From contig JACZWU010000004.1 in assembly GCA_022571985.1 (NCBI GenBank), forward strand, positions 190,319 through 254,318: DNA of 64,000 bases, given 5' to 3'. Position numbers and translations under genes: made by a program. The notes beneath the pieces were generated by a model, which was given only the letters and a program-made list of their open reading frames with translations, was not told the origin of the DNA and made no database searches. Positions within the stretch are counted from its first letter, which is position 1. The number at the start of each line of letters is the position of its first letter. Source of the stretch: Candidatus Zixiibacteriota bacterium (GTDB taxonomy: Bacteria; Zixibacteria; MSB-5A5; GN15; FEB-12). Shown here one piece after another: positions 48,558 through 53,606 of the stretch.

Positions 48558-48989
48558 ATGTCAGATTGGCACTTTCAGTTTAACATAGATATTGATGCTA
48601 AAAACTCGATAGCCAGCGTCAAAATTTATGGAGTATGGCGCGAGGAAACCGCCCGGGAATACTCTGAGCACTTCAAGGAAGAAGTAAAAGCTATTACAGG
48701 CAAGCCCTGGGTACGTCTGGTCGATTTGTCCAACTGGAAGACCGCTTCGGATGAAGTCATTGAGGTAATTGGCGAACTTCTGCAATGGTGCATTGACAAT
48801 AATATGATCCATTCAATCTATATAATTGACAACCCCATTACTTATGGTCAGCTGATGCGCATGGTCAGCAGGGGCAAGGCCAGAGACATTACCAAAACTT
48901 TCCGAACTCGCAACGAAGCTGAAAAATACCTGAAAGAAAAAGGCTTCACAGCCGAATCCCAGACCGACGAAAGCAGCATCTTTAAGTAG
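48558..48989 (+). CDS. STAS/SpoIIAA-like protein
   Basis: A 143-residue protein lacking membrane segments. SVKIYGVWREETAREYSEHF and WVRLVDLSNW followed by an alternating strand/helix pattern fit the SpoIIAA-like STAS fold, used in regulatory or lipid-binding modules. The usual phosphorylatable Ser of anti-sigma antagonists is not evident. It has its own promoter. No partner kinase nearby. Confidence 0.6.
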   Translation: MSDWHFQFNIDIDAKNSIASVKIYGVWREETAREYSEHFKEEVKAITGKPWVRLVDLSNWKTASDEVIEVIGELLQWCIDNNMIHSIYIIDNPITYGQLMRMVSRGKARDITKTFRTRNEAEKYLKEKGFTAESQTDESSIFK

Positions 48990-49088: not shown

Positions 49089-49238
49089 GTTTGGTCTTTC
49101 CCTTAAATGAAATAACTGCGACAGGAAAAGCTTTTCTTTAACGGTCTGGGCTGTTATTTTGTAGTGATTGGGGAGGGAAATTGGGGTAGTGAACTCGCCT
49201 GAATTGAGGTCCACCCAGCCGGCTTAGAGTAATATGTT

Positions 49239-50096
49239 CTAAGGGTATACTCGGAAAAGGGAATCGCAAAACAACACTACTTCTTTACCTTTTTTATGGC
49301 GCTGAGCGCTGTGATTGATTGTGAACTTGCGCTTGAAGTATCCGGAGTAGAGCTCGCGCACAAACATACTGTCATCATATGTCATTATCCAATTTAGTTT
49401 CGATTGAGACAGGAAGTCTGCTAGAGAAAGATGGTCATCAATTTTGTAATCATTAAGATACAATGAATCACCTTGTTCGTAGTAGGGAGGGTCGAGAAAC
49501 GCTAAATGCTTCGAACCTTGTGCTCTCTTCTCAATGTTTATTAGAAAATTGATTCCATCGCGATTTGAAACTGAAATTTTGTGTCTAAGTCGACCAATAT
49601 TGCGAAGTCGACTAATGAGAGTGCTCTTGTTAAATCTCGCTCCGATTTTCCATTGGCCATTTTGCGCTAGACCCCCTATCGGTCTTCCACCAATGATCCC
49701 TGACCGGTTTGTACGATTTAAGAAAAGTGTAGCAAAAGCGAGTCGTTTTTCATTTGAAGTTGGATCTAAATAAATTGCCCTTTGTTTGTGCCATTCCTCA
49801 ATCGTAACCTGAACGTGACGGATTTTTCGAATTAGGTATTCTGTTTTGGAAACTGCAATGTTCCAAAAAGAATATATGGCTGGATCCAAGTCATTAAGTA
49901 TGATGCGGTCTACTATACCTGTCTGTAATAAAGTTAGCGAGGCTCCGGCGCCACCTGCGTAGGGTTCCACAAAAACTAATTTGTCATTTGGACAATAGTT
50001 TTTTCGAATCGCTTTTGTCAAAAATGTAGCAAGTCGTGTTTTGCCTCCGGGATACCTCAGAGGGCTAGGGAAGTCATCTATAACACTATTAATCAT
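49239..50096 (-). CDS. D12-class DNA adenine-N6 methyltransferase
   Basis: A 285-residue enzyme of the Dam/M.DpnII group. SPLRYPGGKTRLA opens the protein, FVEPYAGGAGASL (42-54) is the AdoMet motif, LDPPYYEQG contains catalytic DPPY (202-205), and NRTNRSGIIGG is typical of the class. It would methylate adenine, perhaps in GATC (inference). The start codon directly abuts the stop of the upstream ParB-like gene. No restriction endonuclease is adjacent. AT-rich compared with the core genes around it. Confidence 0.92.
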   Translation of the reverse strand: MINSVIDDFPSPLRYPGGKTRLATFLTKAIRKNYCPNDKLVFVEPYAGGAGASLTLLQTGIVDRIILNDLDPAIYSFWNIAVSKTEYLIRKIRHVQVTIEEWHKQRAIYLDPTSNEKRLAFATLFLNRTNRSGIIGGRPIGGLAQNGQWKIGARFNKSTLISRLRNIGRLRHKISVSNRDGINFLINIEKRAQGSKHLAFLDPPYYEQGDSLYLNDYKIDDHLSLADFLSQSKLNWIMTYDDSMFVRELYSGYFKRKFTINHSAQRHKKGKEVVLFCDSLFRVYP

Positions 50097-51473
50097 TTAA
50101 TTTGTTTTAACCCCAGGTACGAGGAATTTGAATAATGTGTACACATTTATCCATAAATCCTTGATGTTTGTCTCTGTAGCAAGAAAAAGCGTATTATGGG
50201 CAACCTGATTTAATGTTTTCGTTAGCAAGTCGTTATGGAGTTGCTCAATAGTTTTCTTAAGGTCCCTGTCATTAACGTAATTATCTTTAATGAAATCTAT
50301 TTTCTTTACAAGTGTTAACTCCAGTTGTTTTGTTTCTTTCTTTTTCTTAAGGTATTCAACAGTTGCTACTTCAATGAGAATACGGACCAGAATACTTGAC
50401 GCGTGAGGACACTCTGAAACGTTTATTTTTTGCAACTCTTGGAAGACGGCTTTTACTTTATCAGAAGCATTTCTTGGTAAAACGAGTTTCGGGTCTATAA
50501 GAGCTAAGAAACCATTAGTTTGAGAACGCTTACGTTTTTGACTAGATTTCTTGCCCTTTTTCTTCTTCTTGCGTTCTGTAGATTGCGCTTCTTTTATTAG
50601 TCTATCAACTTCATCTACATCAATAGGACTAATTGAGCCGAGATACTCCCTTATCGCGCGTTCTTTATTAAGAGTTCTAGAATTGAGAACTCTGGCTCCA
50701 TCAAGTGATTTCTTCTTTACGATATTGTATACAATGATTTTAAGCAGTTTGAGGAATTCACTTTCATCCTCTATACGCAATTCGAATTCGAGTCTTTCAT
50801 ATTTCAATTTCTTTCTACCTTCATTTCCGCCAACTACTCGATAGAGATTGGTGGCATACCCCCTTCCCAATACCGATTGTATGAATGAATTTGGTAAATC
50901 AACTAACTTCACTTTGTCAGCAAAGTTTGCTCTGAAGATGCTATCTTTCTCCATCGGAGACAAAGAATCTGCTGAGGTATCTCTTGTTCTTTTAATATAG
51001 TGGTCTCTTTCGTATTGCTCCCAGCGTTTTTCGTTGTTACCATAATAGTGTTTTCTTTCAATATACCTCATGCCTTCCTTTTTCGTACTAGTGATGAGGG
51101 CTTCAAGCCTAAAATGCTTGTCGATTGAAATTTGTTTCTTAAACGACTCAAATTTGTCTTTCATATCGTCGTCAGAAATGATAGAGGGGTCTACCAAGCA
51201 CTTATAAGTGGCAAGTCTTCTGTTTCCTTCCAGCACAACGAGCTGATTCTTATTTCTCCATACAACTAATTTTTCTAACTGAGGCAAGTCAGCATCTTTA
51301 ATGAAGTCTTTTGCAAGGTTCTCAAGATCATATTTTTTCAAAAGAGTCTGGATCAGATCATATTCATCGCCGCCCAACATGTAATCTGGAATGCGAGAAT
51401 TTTCGTCCCACAATAACAGATCTTTTATAGGTATATGTTTTGTCTCCCAATTTTGTTTGGATCTAGTCATCAT
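50097..51473 (-). CDS. ParB-like N-terminal-domain protein
   Basis: A 458-residue protein. The N-terminal ~110 residues fit the ParB/sulfiredoxin-like fold, with LWDENSRIPD and LVVLEGNRRLATYK (EGNRR at 82-86). A helical middle, a Lys-rich linker (~302-323, RKKKKKGKKSSQKRKR), and an unassigned C-terminal helical domain (~325-458) follow. Not a chromosomal ParB: no ParA and no typical HTH. Its stop is immediately followed by the methyltransferase ATG (TAAATG). ParB-like domains of this kind occur in defence and phage loci as nucleases or NTP-dependent switches (family knowledge); its role here is unknown. Confidence 0.75.
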   Translation of the reverse strand: MMTRSKQNWETKHIPIKDLLLWDENSRIPDYMLGGDEYDLIQTLLKKYDLENLAKDFIKDADLPQLEKLVVWRNKNQLVVLEGNRRLATYKCLVDPSIISDDDMKDKFESFKKQISIDKHFRLEALITSTKKEGMRYIERKHYYGNNEKRWEQYERDHYIKRTRDTSADSLSPMEKDSIFRANFADKVKLVDLPNSFIQSVLGRGYATNLYRVVGGNEGRKKLKYERLEFELRIEDESEFLKLLKIIVYNIVKKKSLDGARVLNSRTLNKERAIREYLGSISPIDVDEVDRLIKEAQSTERKKKKKGKKSSQKRKRSQTNGFLALIDPKLVLPRNASDKVKAVFQELQKINVSECPHASSILVRILIEVATVEYLKKKKETKQLELTLVKKIDFIKDNYVNDRDLKKTIEQLHNDLLTKTLNQVAHNTLFLATETNIKDLWINVYTLFKFLVPGVKTN

Positions 51474-51587
51474 ATAAATTCCCTCCTTTTCTATACCTGC
51501 GTTTTAAGTATATTTGTCCTACTATATTTATAACGAATTTTACCCCAGTAGCGCAAGCGACAAATGAAAACGCTTTCCGCTAATTCC

Positions 51588-53606
51588 CTACTTCATATAC
51601 TTCCCAAACCACCTGGATATCCAGCCCAATCTGGCGATGCGGCGGTCGGGGCGGCCGTGGCGCGAGAGGCCGTGCGGTTCTTCGGGGAATATAACCAGTT
51701 CGACTTTCTTTTTCAATAGTTTCAGTATGACATACATCTGGTGCGCCTGCTCGATAGGACAGCGCAAATCCTGTTCGCTGTGGATAATTAAGACCGGCGT
51801 TTTCACTTTTTTGAAGTATGTCTTGGGTGAGCGCTTCTCGTAGTTTTCGGGGTTGGTCCAGGGGAAGCCATCAAACTCCCGTTCAATATCGTAACCGACA
51901 TCCGAGGAACCGACAAACGAATTTAAATCACAAATCGAGCGCTGTGTCACGGCCGCTTTAAATCTGTTAGTGTGGCCGATTATCCAGTTGGTCATAAAAC
52001 CGCCATAGGAGCCGCCGGTCACGCCGATCTTTTTAGAGTTAATGAAACGTTGCTTTTCCATATAGTCGGCCGCGGCCATACAGTCTTTGTAATCCAAGTC
52101 ACCCCAGCCGCCGCAGATGGACTCAGCCCAGGTTTCACCCCGTCCGGCCCCGCCGCGGGGATTGGTGTAAAATATGACGTAGCCTTTGGCCGCTAAGTAC
52201 TGCATTTCGTGAAAGAAAGTATGGGCATACTGCACCCGCGGTCCGCCGTGAATTTGCAAAATAGCCGGATACTTTTTGTTGGCATTAAATTTCGGCGGCC
52301 GCAGGAGCCAGCCCTGAAGTTCGGTACCATCGAAAGATTTAAACATGACGTCAGTCGTCTTACCCAGCTGAACGTCTGTGCGCAGGAATTTGTTTAGGTC
52401 AGTATGTTTGATTGCTTTTTTCTCGCCCGCAAAAGAAGCCGGGCAGGTCATGATGTCACCCGGATTGCTGATGTCCGCGTAAACCAAAGCGGCGATGCCG
52501 CCCTTGCCGTTTAGCGAAAGTCCTTTTAAGTGGCACTTGCCTCTGAACACCCGGGTTGGCCTGCCGCCGGACTTGGGCACGTAAAAGAGATTGGTGTTGC
52601 CACTGTCGGATGACAAAAAGTAAATACGTTTGGAGTCGTCCGACCAAAATAGTACCGCCGTCTCGTGAACGTCAGATGAATCGGTAATCGACTGGTCATA
52701 GGCCATGCGGTCAAACCCTTTGAGCAGATCCTTGGTCTTCTGCTTACTGCTTAAAGTTACCAGCCAGATATGTTCGTTAGTTATGCTCCAGGCATCGTTG
52801 GGGTTGTCATGGCCGATATAGGCGATCGATTTACCGTCGGGAGAAAACTTTGGGGCGCTAATCGGACCGGCCGGAGTTAAAATCTTTTTCTCTTTGCCGC
52901 CTTTGATTGGCCGCATAAACAAGTCGTGGAACAGATAATTATAATGCGGGTTCTTAGCGCGGTTGGAAACATACGCAATTTGCTTTCCATCGGGAGAGAC
53001 AGTCGGCCAATATTCATCGGTCTTGCCATTTGTTATCTGACTGAGTTTAGCCGAGGCGGTATCAAGAGTGAAAATGTGAAAGACATCTTTGGGGACGTAG
53101 CCTTCACTGTCCATCCGATAAAAAAGCTTGGTGATATGACGATAGAGCGGATCCTTCTTTTTCTCTTTTTCGTCTTTGACATAATGCGAGTCGTTATATC
53201 TTAAAGCAAAGACCAGCGTTTTGCCATCTGGCGCCCACTGCAAACGCGAAATAGTGCCGTCCAGATCGACAACTTTTTTCTCAGCGCCGCCCGAGGTCGG
53301 CATCAGGTAAATGCCGGTCTTTTTGTTTCTGGTCGAGACAAACACAATCTGTGAGCCATCGGGAGACCAGACCGCCTGGCTATCGCTATGGTCGCCGAAA
53401 GTAAACTGGCTGCTTTTCTGGGAAGCGATATTCAGCAGATAGATATTGGCGAAGTACTTTTTCTTTTTTTCATCCATCCGCTCAACAGTATAAGCGACCT
53501 GTTTTTCGTCTGGAGATATCGAAACCGAGGTGGGTACTCTCAGGCGGTACAAATCTTCGGCTGTTATGCTTTTCTTCTTTGACGCTTTTTTAATCGGTTT
53601 ATTCAT
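51588..53606 (-). CDS. S9-family serine peptidase (acylaminoacyl/dipeptidyl peptidase-like)
   Basis: A 672-residue peptidase without signal peptide, probably cytosolic. The N-terminal half is a WD40-like propeller (repeated SPDGKQIAYVS-type motifs, ~30-400). The C-terminal alpha/beta-hydrolase domain has GGSYGGFMTN (Ser533), EQDLRCP (Asp613) and EEPHGL (His645). Cleaves peptides or acylated amino acids. Divergent from the E1 gene. Confidence 0.93.
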   Translation of the reverse strand: MNKPIKKASKKKSITAEDLYRLRVPTSVSISPDEKQVAYTVERMDEKKKKYFANIYLLNIASQKSSQFTFGDHSDSQAVWSPDGSQIVFVSTRNKKTGIYLMPTSGGAEKKVVDLDGTISRLQWAPDGKTLVFALRYNDSHYVKDEKEKKKDPLYRHITKLFYRMDSEGYVPKDVFHIFTLDTASAKLSQITNGKTDEYWPTVSPDGKQIAYVSNRAKNPHYNYLFHDLFMRPIKGGKEKKILTPAGPISAPKFSPDGKSIAYIGHDNPNDAWSITNEHIWLVTLSSKQKTKDLLKGFDRMAYDQSITDSSDVHETAVLFWSDDSKRIYFLSSDSGNTNLFYVPKSGGRPTRVFRGKCHLKGLSLNGKGGIAALVYADISNPGDIMTCPASFAGEKKAIKHTDLNKFLRTDVQLGKTTDVMFKSFDGTELQGWLLRPPKFNANKKYPAILQIHGGPRVQYAHTFFHEMQYLAAKGYVIFYTNPRGGAGRGETWAESICGGWGDLDYKDCMAAADYMEKQRFINSKKIGVTGGSYGGFMTNWIIGHTNRFKAAVTQRSICDLNSFVGSSDVGYDIEREFDGFPWTNPENYEKRSPKTYFKKVKTPVLIIHSEQDLRCPIEQAHQMYVILKLLKKKVELVIFPEEPHGLSRHGRPDRRIARLGWISRWFGKYMK

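Follow-up and report, generated by a model that had tools for sequence, protein, structure and literature searches.

A chromosomal ParB-like protein and adenine methyltransferase gene pair matching PD-Lambda-5, and a methyltransferase clade with exchangeable effectors

Introduction

PD-Lambda-5 is an anti-phage system of Escherichia coli that was obtained by functional selection (Vassallo et al. 2022, PMC9519451). In that paper, the system is labelled 'RM+Abi' and is described as protecting broadly in E. coli, the anti-phage activity being shown for the E. coli system only; the strain used for the selection had the mrr region deleted. We found no description of the domain anatomy or mechanism of PD-Lambda-5 in the open-licence literature.

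Proteins of the SspE/GmrSD/BrxU type (DUF262) couple a ParB-fold NTPase domain to an effector domain and to DNA-modification sensing. According to PMC13251355, recognition of DNA modification by SspE is coupled to cleavage through GTP hydrolysis, and because of this coupling SspE serves as a precedent for the mechanism proposed below.

Here we describe a gene pair from a Candidatus Zixiibacteriota bacterium, located in a stretch of 64,000 nucleotides (hereafter, the window). The locus is new, and it is a member of an already known system, PD-Lambda-5.

Results

The gene pair and its genomic slot

The locus has the following features (positions are those of the window).

50097 to 51473, minus strand: ParB-like effector gene, PD-Lambda-5_A, 458 aa (ORF and translation, PADLOC PDLC03998)
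49239 to 50096, minus strand: D12-class DNA adenine methyltransferase (MTase) gene, PD-Lambda-5_B, 285 aa (PF02086, PADLOC PDLC04018)
51481 to 51486, minus strand: GGAGGG, a putative ribosome-binding-like site just 5' of the ParB ATG (from the sequence)
49194 to 51587, no strand: stretch swapped for another gene in the sister species G033 (blastn against L073)

The initial annotation had described the two genes as abutting, AT-rich and alone between core genes, and all three statements hold. Both are minus-strand ORFs joined at TAAATG, where the TAA of the ParB-like gene (50097–50099) is directly followed by the ATG of the MTase gene (50094–50096). The GC content of the pair is 0.380 as compared with 0.455 for the whole window, and only 0.4% of the 2235-bp steps in the window are as low; the MTase gene has a value of 0.406, and the ParB gene, with 0.364, is the lowest among the 51 long ORFs of the window. 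In the ORF list, there is no convincing gene in the gaps that separate the pair from a 143-aa gene (48558–48989) on one side and an S9 peptidase gene (51588–53606) on the other. A restriction endonuclease (REase) had been said to be missing beside the MTase, and indeed neither the ParB-like gene nor the outer neighbours matched an REase family. The locus resembles a Type II restriction-modification system in that its MTase adjoins what would be a DNA-acting partner, but differs from it in having no REase gene, the partner being a predicted ParB-HEPN protein. ARAGORN detected no tRNA in the window, and scans for promoters and terminators did no better than on shuffled sequence.

In 15 of 30 loci examined from the window's family, the 143-aa gene is convergent with, and directly next to, the S9 peptidase gene, the distance between their stops being 5–570 bp; the peptidase gene lay outside the fetched stretch in the other 15, three of which belong to the window's own genus. 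The gap between the flanking genes is 2598 bp in the window. The flanks in G033 align with those of the window at 83–89% identity up to 49194 and 51587 (blastn against L073), and the slot between them holds a different 603-aa gene instead of the pair. Since the slot is empty in those 15 loci and carries a patchy gene in G033, it seems to accommodate varying cargo, and the pair has the appearance of an insertion into it. PD-Lambda-5 itself is also patchy, being present in 7 of 132 genomes of the window's phylum and in 17 of 369 genomes of a class taken as Gammaproteobacteria (the class of G132, the genome holding the Alcaligenes locus L018).

The 603-aa gene of G033 (L073:2522-4330) was found in 3 of 60 relatives. 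Its protein matched nothing in Pfam or PADLOC at the applied cut-offs and bears RNVSDH, an RX4H-type HEPN-like motif, at its C-terminus. It is possibly an unrecognised defence gene.

The initial annotation had also considered that the pair might be a simple prophage remnant. Many homologues do reside in prophages, where they are cargo pairs, but the window copy has no adjoining phage genes. In E. coli, the ParB pair and an ATPase pair (described below) both adjoin the portal gene of P2-like prophages, a place called the 'P2 defence hotspot' by Vassallo et al. (PMC9519451).

Relation to PD-Lambda-5

The ParB-like protein matched the PADLOC model PDLC03998 with E=1.2e-40 (residues 11–451 on 4–463 of 466), and the MTase matched PDLC04018 with E=1.4e-102 (residues 9–280 on 4–273 of 291). 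Components A and B of PD-Lambda-5 are each matched at full length by genes that are adjacent, and as the two proteins match one component each, the pair is more than a chance resemblance. Judged from these sequence matches, the window pair is a chromosomal copy of PD-Lambda-5. The arrangement is also alike: two genes, the first for a ParB-like protein of ~450–500 aa and the second for a D12 MTase of ~285 aa. The same gene order is seen in a pair from an E. coli P2 prophage; the ParB protein of that pair matches the PD-Lambda-5 A model with E=6.9e-168. Unlike PD-Lambda-5 in prophages, the pair of the window lies in the chromosome. Its ParB protein shares only 15–25% identity with the other aligned members, and its MTase reaches 56% identity at best. 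A restriction-modification-like pair with a ParB-type effector had been proposed for this locus earlier; that proposal agrees with the published system, which already had a name that went unmentioned there.

The MTase is a D12 enzyme (Pfam PF02086, E=3.3e-18) in which the motifs RYPGGK, EPYAGG and DPPY are intact. Two of its segments are located as follows.

49482 to 49493, minus strand: DPPY catalytic motif, MTase residues 202–205 (identical in 16/16 alignment rows)
49698 to 49724, minus strand: FLNRTNRSG, signature of the MTase clade, residues 125–133 (alignment)

From the deletion of the mrr region in the selection strain, we infer that the MTase adds an adenine methylation that Mrr would attack; non-specific methylation of the M.EcoGII kind is conceivable for the same reason. 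Assignment to Dam (TIGR00571) was rejected, the score of 64.3 bits being below the curated cut-off of 114.85.

Domains of the ParB-like protein

An AlphaFold2 model of the ParB-like protein was built from a 30-row alignment (pLDDT 83.6, pTM 0.59) and yielded the following anatomy.

51024 to 51446, minus strand: predicted ParB/sulfiredoxin-type NTP-binding domain, residues ~10–150 (AlphaFold2 and VIA)
51216 to 51230, minus strand: EGNRR motif, residues 82–86, at the position of the ParB P-motif (alignment)
50514 to 50576, minus strand: Lys-rich disordered linker, residues ~300–320 (sequence; pLDDT <50 at 309–320)
50106 to 50474, minus strand: predicted C-terminal HEPN-fold domain, residues ~334–456 (VIA and column counts)

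The N-terminal domain has a ParB-CTPase fold in the model, with VIA Z values of 7.6–8.9 to structures of ParB, Noc, KorB and PadC; the comparison with ParB-CTPgammaS (7bnr_A) gave Z 8.9 and an rmsd of 2.3 over 95 residues. The domain also matches CTP/CDP-bound ParB structures, and this predicted likeness supports the idea of an NTP-driven switch raised by the initial annotation. As regards NTP binding by this fold, PMC12704722 states that specificity cannot be predicted reliably. The EGNRR motif reported earlier is present at residues 82–86 and is identical in 29 of 30 aligned rows, the remaining row being gapped; both P-motif arginines, R85 and R86, occur in 29/29 ungapped rows. The long Lys-rich linker was likewise located near residues 300–320, where the confidence of the model is at its lowest. 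It is only the fold that identifies the ParB domain clearly, as Pfam ParB_N gave weak matches (E<=0.1 in 5 of 30 rows, best 0.038).

The C-terminal domain gave VIA matches to 2jpu (Z 8.7), 2q00 (Z 8.5), 4nqf (Z 8.2), 8xeh, a HEPN-MNT structure (Z 7.9), 6tug, a Csm6 (Z 7.8), and the ROQ region of Roquin (Z 9.9), which contains a HEPN domain. Unrelated helical bundles can reach Z 8–10, and care is needed under Z 13. From the agreement of many HEPN entries together with a weak similarity to DUF4145 (Pfam, E=0.14), we conclude that the C-terminal domain of the model folds as HEPN. Other than DUF4145, no HEPN family was matched by sequence, and PDB sequence and profile searches returned nothing relevant for this domain; the assignment rests on the predicted fold because sequence searches gave nothing useful. 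Thus, the profile search of this domain suggested by the initial annotation was unhelpful as far as sequence profiles are concerned, and it was the predicted fold that pointed to HEPN. Foldseek alone gave no match at E<=0.001 for this model or for the model of a short-form third gene (see below).

RX4-6H is the HEPN RNase motif. It is absent from the window protein and occurs in no more than 3 of the 30 rows of the alignment. Several positions of the HEPN part are conserved nevertheless: R364 (30/30), E or D at 368 (30/30), E or Q at 346 (30/30) and H426 (29/30), the window protein having E at both 346 and 368. If the HEPN part is catalytic at all, the sequences suggest that catalysis would proceed without the textbook motif. 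The predicted fold is shared with HEPN-MNT toxin-antitoxin pairs, but the window protein differs from these in lacking RX4-6H and in having a DNA MTase, not a nucleotidyltransferase, as partner. It also differs from SspE, GmrSD and BrxU, being HEPN-like instead of HNH and having an MTase partner; no Pfam match to DUF262 or HNH (SspE/GmrSD type) was obtained at E<=1.

These features bear on two other explanations of the pair. One is that the ParB-HEPN protein acts on m6A-bearing DNA, or needs the mark for loading, much as SspE requires phosphorothioate. SspE is a ParB-fold NTPase effector that senses DNA modification (PMC13251355). The SspE structure 6jiv was matched with Z 4.8; this match is weak and limited to the ParB domain, and an effector attacking the mark of its own host would kill that host unless some further step intervened. 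We find this explanation improbable. The other is that the genes do housekeeping for a phage or plasmid, with the MTase shielding the element from restriction, the ParB-like protein partitioning or regulating, and the chromosomal copy being a relic. The many homologues in prophages would suit this. However, the protein matched none of the NCBIfam families and is not a canonical ParB partition protein, no ParA adjoins the pair (the neighbours being the S9 peptidase and the 143-aa protein), and the C-terminus of the model is HEPN-like. In addition, the pair in the window is intact, the slot that it occupies is variable and bounded by core genes, and a published family member stops phages (PMC9519451). 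A housekeeping role thus appears very improbable.

Association with DNA methyltransferases

The ParB protein follows DNA METHYLTRANSFERASES, in viral contigs as well as in bacterial genomes. We scanned viral contigs with a ParB motif, blind to the presence of an MTase, and obtained 40 loci. In all 27 loci of the long form, a D12 MTase gene adjoins (23 on the same strand, 4 convergent), so that the pairing outlasts convergent gene order in 4/27. The remaining 13 loci carry a short form, which is without the HEPN part and adjoins a gene of ~300–380 aa; ten of them have a C5 MTase, two a D12 MTase and one is cut by the contig end. The C5 identity was obtained from Pfam for three loci (E<=1.3e-61) and for the rest from a profile built from six loci. 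The label 'short' denotes a match to the profile of the third gene, which was partly built from the viral loci that it labels; the same profile also found L054, L062, L147, L149 and L153, all outside its building set.

For this third gene, neither Pfam nor PDB returned anything by sequence. Its model folds like a PD-(D/E)XK nuclease, with MspJI, AspBHI, FokI and other nucleases on top and a best Z of 7.9, slightly below the value of 8 that the tool sets as its limit for caution. In 14 rows, D220 and Q241 never vary and D216 hardly does (L033 numbering). As the short form is without HEPN and its third gene is PD-(D/E)XK-like, a separate nuclease would, on the predicted folds, occupy the place of the HEPN domain of the long form. 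The three-gene set of ParB-like protein, PD-(D/E)XK-like nuclease and C5 MTase was observed in the viral contigs at L033, L038, L046, L049, L050, L054, L059, L061, L063 and L066, and its nuclease gene had no PADLOC match where tested.

Bacterial genomes gave a similar picture. All eight loci in the window's phylum have a D12 MTase (six long, two short), as do 13/13 long-form loci in Gammaproteobacteria, one of which is split over two contig ends. Six other gammaproteobacterial matches comprise three with an MTase and three without a visible one; the latter are a second copy in G469, a ParB gene with an inserted ORF in G273 and a match in G244 that was unconfirmed by profile. In G273 (L150), the short-form ParB gene is broken by a 479-aa ORF on the opposite strand, apparently an insertion.

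The distances among ParB proteins and among their MTases are correlated (Mantel r=0.64, 62 pairs), and 0 of 2000 shuffles gave a value as high. A ParB-like gene found mostly alone had been named as the outcome that would contradict a functional pair; this is refuted, as the gene is rarely seen without a DNA MTase. Since the ParB protein stands alongside two MTase chemistries, D12 and C5, the association fits the reading of a methyl mark. With the ParB protein as query, the genome-contig scan found no relative, although the same scan worked with the MTase, and tblastn of the ParB protein gave nothing in phages and one plasmid.

Effector exchange around one methyltransferase clade

METHYLTRANSFERASE has exchangeable partners, namely ParB-HEPN, ParB with a PD-(D/E)XK-like nuclease, or an OLD/PtuA-like ATPase. 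Among the best 40 of 80 listed viral relatives of the MTase (L154–L193; cut at a drop in similarity, and the best-scoring part of the scan, not all of it), the neighbour was ParB alone in 22, ParB with nuclease in 3, an AAA_15 ATPase in 14 and none in 1. The single effector-less relative stands at a contig start, so 39 of these 40 adjoin an effector. The ATPase gene was upstream of the MTase gene and on the same strand in 14/14 of these cases. Among the next 40 of the matches listed, which are distant D12 MTases, a ParB or ATPase neighbour was found in 0/40; in 25 of these, the contig extended for 1.3 kb on either side. In bacterial genomes, 10/10 MTase loci had one module (seven ParB-HEPN, one ParB with nuclease, two ATPase).

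The ATPases are similar to PtuA, retron ATPases and OLD, and as AAA_15 proteins they are unrelated to ParB-HEPN, but their MTases belong to the same clade. The closest MTases with different effectors, L160 (ATPase) and L021 (ParB-HEPN), are 81.6% identical over 271 residues. The MTase tree started from 131 loci whose D12 match was strong; a cut at 85% identity left 100, of which one was removed because of its length. L001, L002, L008, L012, L013, L070 and L080 were left out as duplicate or partial, whereas partial copies of one genome's locus (for example, L130 and L134) stayed in. In this quick tree of 99 rows, with SH-aLRT as its only support measure, the effector label must change at least 15 times when rows labelled 'none' (2) and 'both' (1) are skipped. 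The ATPase label needs 10 changes, and 5 of these are forced by well-supported branches. The labels are nevertheless more clustered than shuffled labels, and distances among ATPases and MTases of the ATPase type give r=0.42 (20 pairs). From the label clustering and the distance correlation, we conclude that the pairs travel together and that effectors are occasionally exchanged. The first half of the PADLOC model PDC-M38A matches the short ParB and its second half the ATPase, as if the ParB and ATPase effector types also existed fused.

AAA_15 ATPase and MTase loci include L014, L017, L024, L026, L075, L077, L079, L157 and L159–L161, and the ATPase and MTase pair, apparently unnamed, is frequent in E. 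coli prophages. Close relatives were found in 85/5426 and 15/5426 E. coli genomes with two ATPase-type queries and in 22/5426 and 9/5426 with two ParB-type queries.

The exchange and the association data also bear on the possibility that the genes form an addiction pair, in which a ParB-HEPN toxin is restrained by the MTase protein or by methylation and defence is a by-product of a phage disturbing the MTase. HEPN is the toxin fold of HEPN-MNT pairs (the 8xeh match), the stop and start codons of the two genes adjoin, and one MTase neutralising several toxins would suit an effector exchange. On the other hand, ParB occurs with the PD-(D/E)XK-like nuclease in 13/40 viral loci, 10/13 of them with a C5 MTase, for which a DNA mark is easier to imagine than one protein contact, and the 4/27 convergent long loci do not form one operon. 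We therefore regard a toxin-antitoxin-like pair as unlikely, albeit the least unlikely of the alternatives.

Discussion

The reading that we prefer, and consider probable, is that PD-Lambda-5 discriminates self from non-self: the MTase marks the host DNA, and the ParB-HEPN protein acts against DNA or cells without that mark. The D12 MTase would put m6A on its target site and so mark the DNA of the host. The NTP-binding ParB-fold protein would then sense unmarked target sites on entering DNA and would switch by NTP binding or hydrolysis, and this switch may activate the C-terminal HEPN domain, which would cut nucleic acid or otherwise stop the infected cell. An unmethylated site would, in other words, be what activates the effector. 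In relatives, a separate PD-(D/E)XK-like nuclease gene stands in the place of the HEPN domain, or an OLD/PtuA-like ATPase replaces the whole ParB-type effector, the MTase being kept in either case. As ParB occurs with both D12 and C5 MTases, and as different effectors occur with near-identical MTases, a mark on DNA would be the simplest common language between the modules. Against this, unrelated effectors that share nearly the same MTase could be reading the MTase protein instead.

A broader reading, to which we assign even chances, is that one D12 MTase clade is the fixed 'self' module of a large defence family with plug-in effectors, where unrelated effectors read the same mark or are restrained by it and PD-Lambda-5 is only one branch. 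The ParB protein would then be a clamp gated by methylation, with HEPN in the place of the usual ParB dimer domain. The open-licence literature yielded no account of the exchangeable-effector family, the ParB-nuclease-C5 form and the ATPase form as one family.

The anatomy turns PD-Lambda-5 into testable claims, that a ParB-fold NTP switch gates HEPN and that the MTase marks self. Repeated effector exchange with the MTase clade as its constant part would account for many of the 'orphan' adenine methylases of prophages, and it predicts an ATPase-type system that, by the close-relative counts, is more frequent in E. coli than the ParB type.

Some loci hold both effector types round one MTase. 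In the Vibrio phage ValB1MD-2 (L027:3132-7150), a two-piece ParB gene and the MTase gene are accompanied by a convergent ATPase gene, and L056 and L185 hold both types too. Another Vibrio phage (L025:4989-9431) has an MTase of the clade without a ParB or ATPase match; beside it lie genes for a 462-aa protein of no assigned family, a P-loop protein and a HerA-like protein, which perhaps represent a further type of effector.
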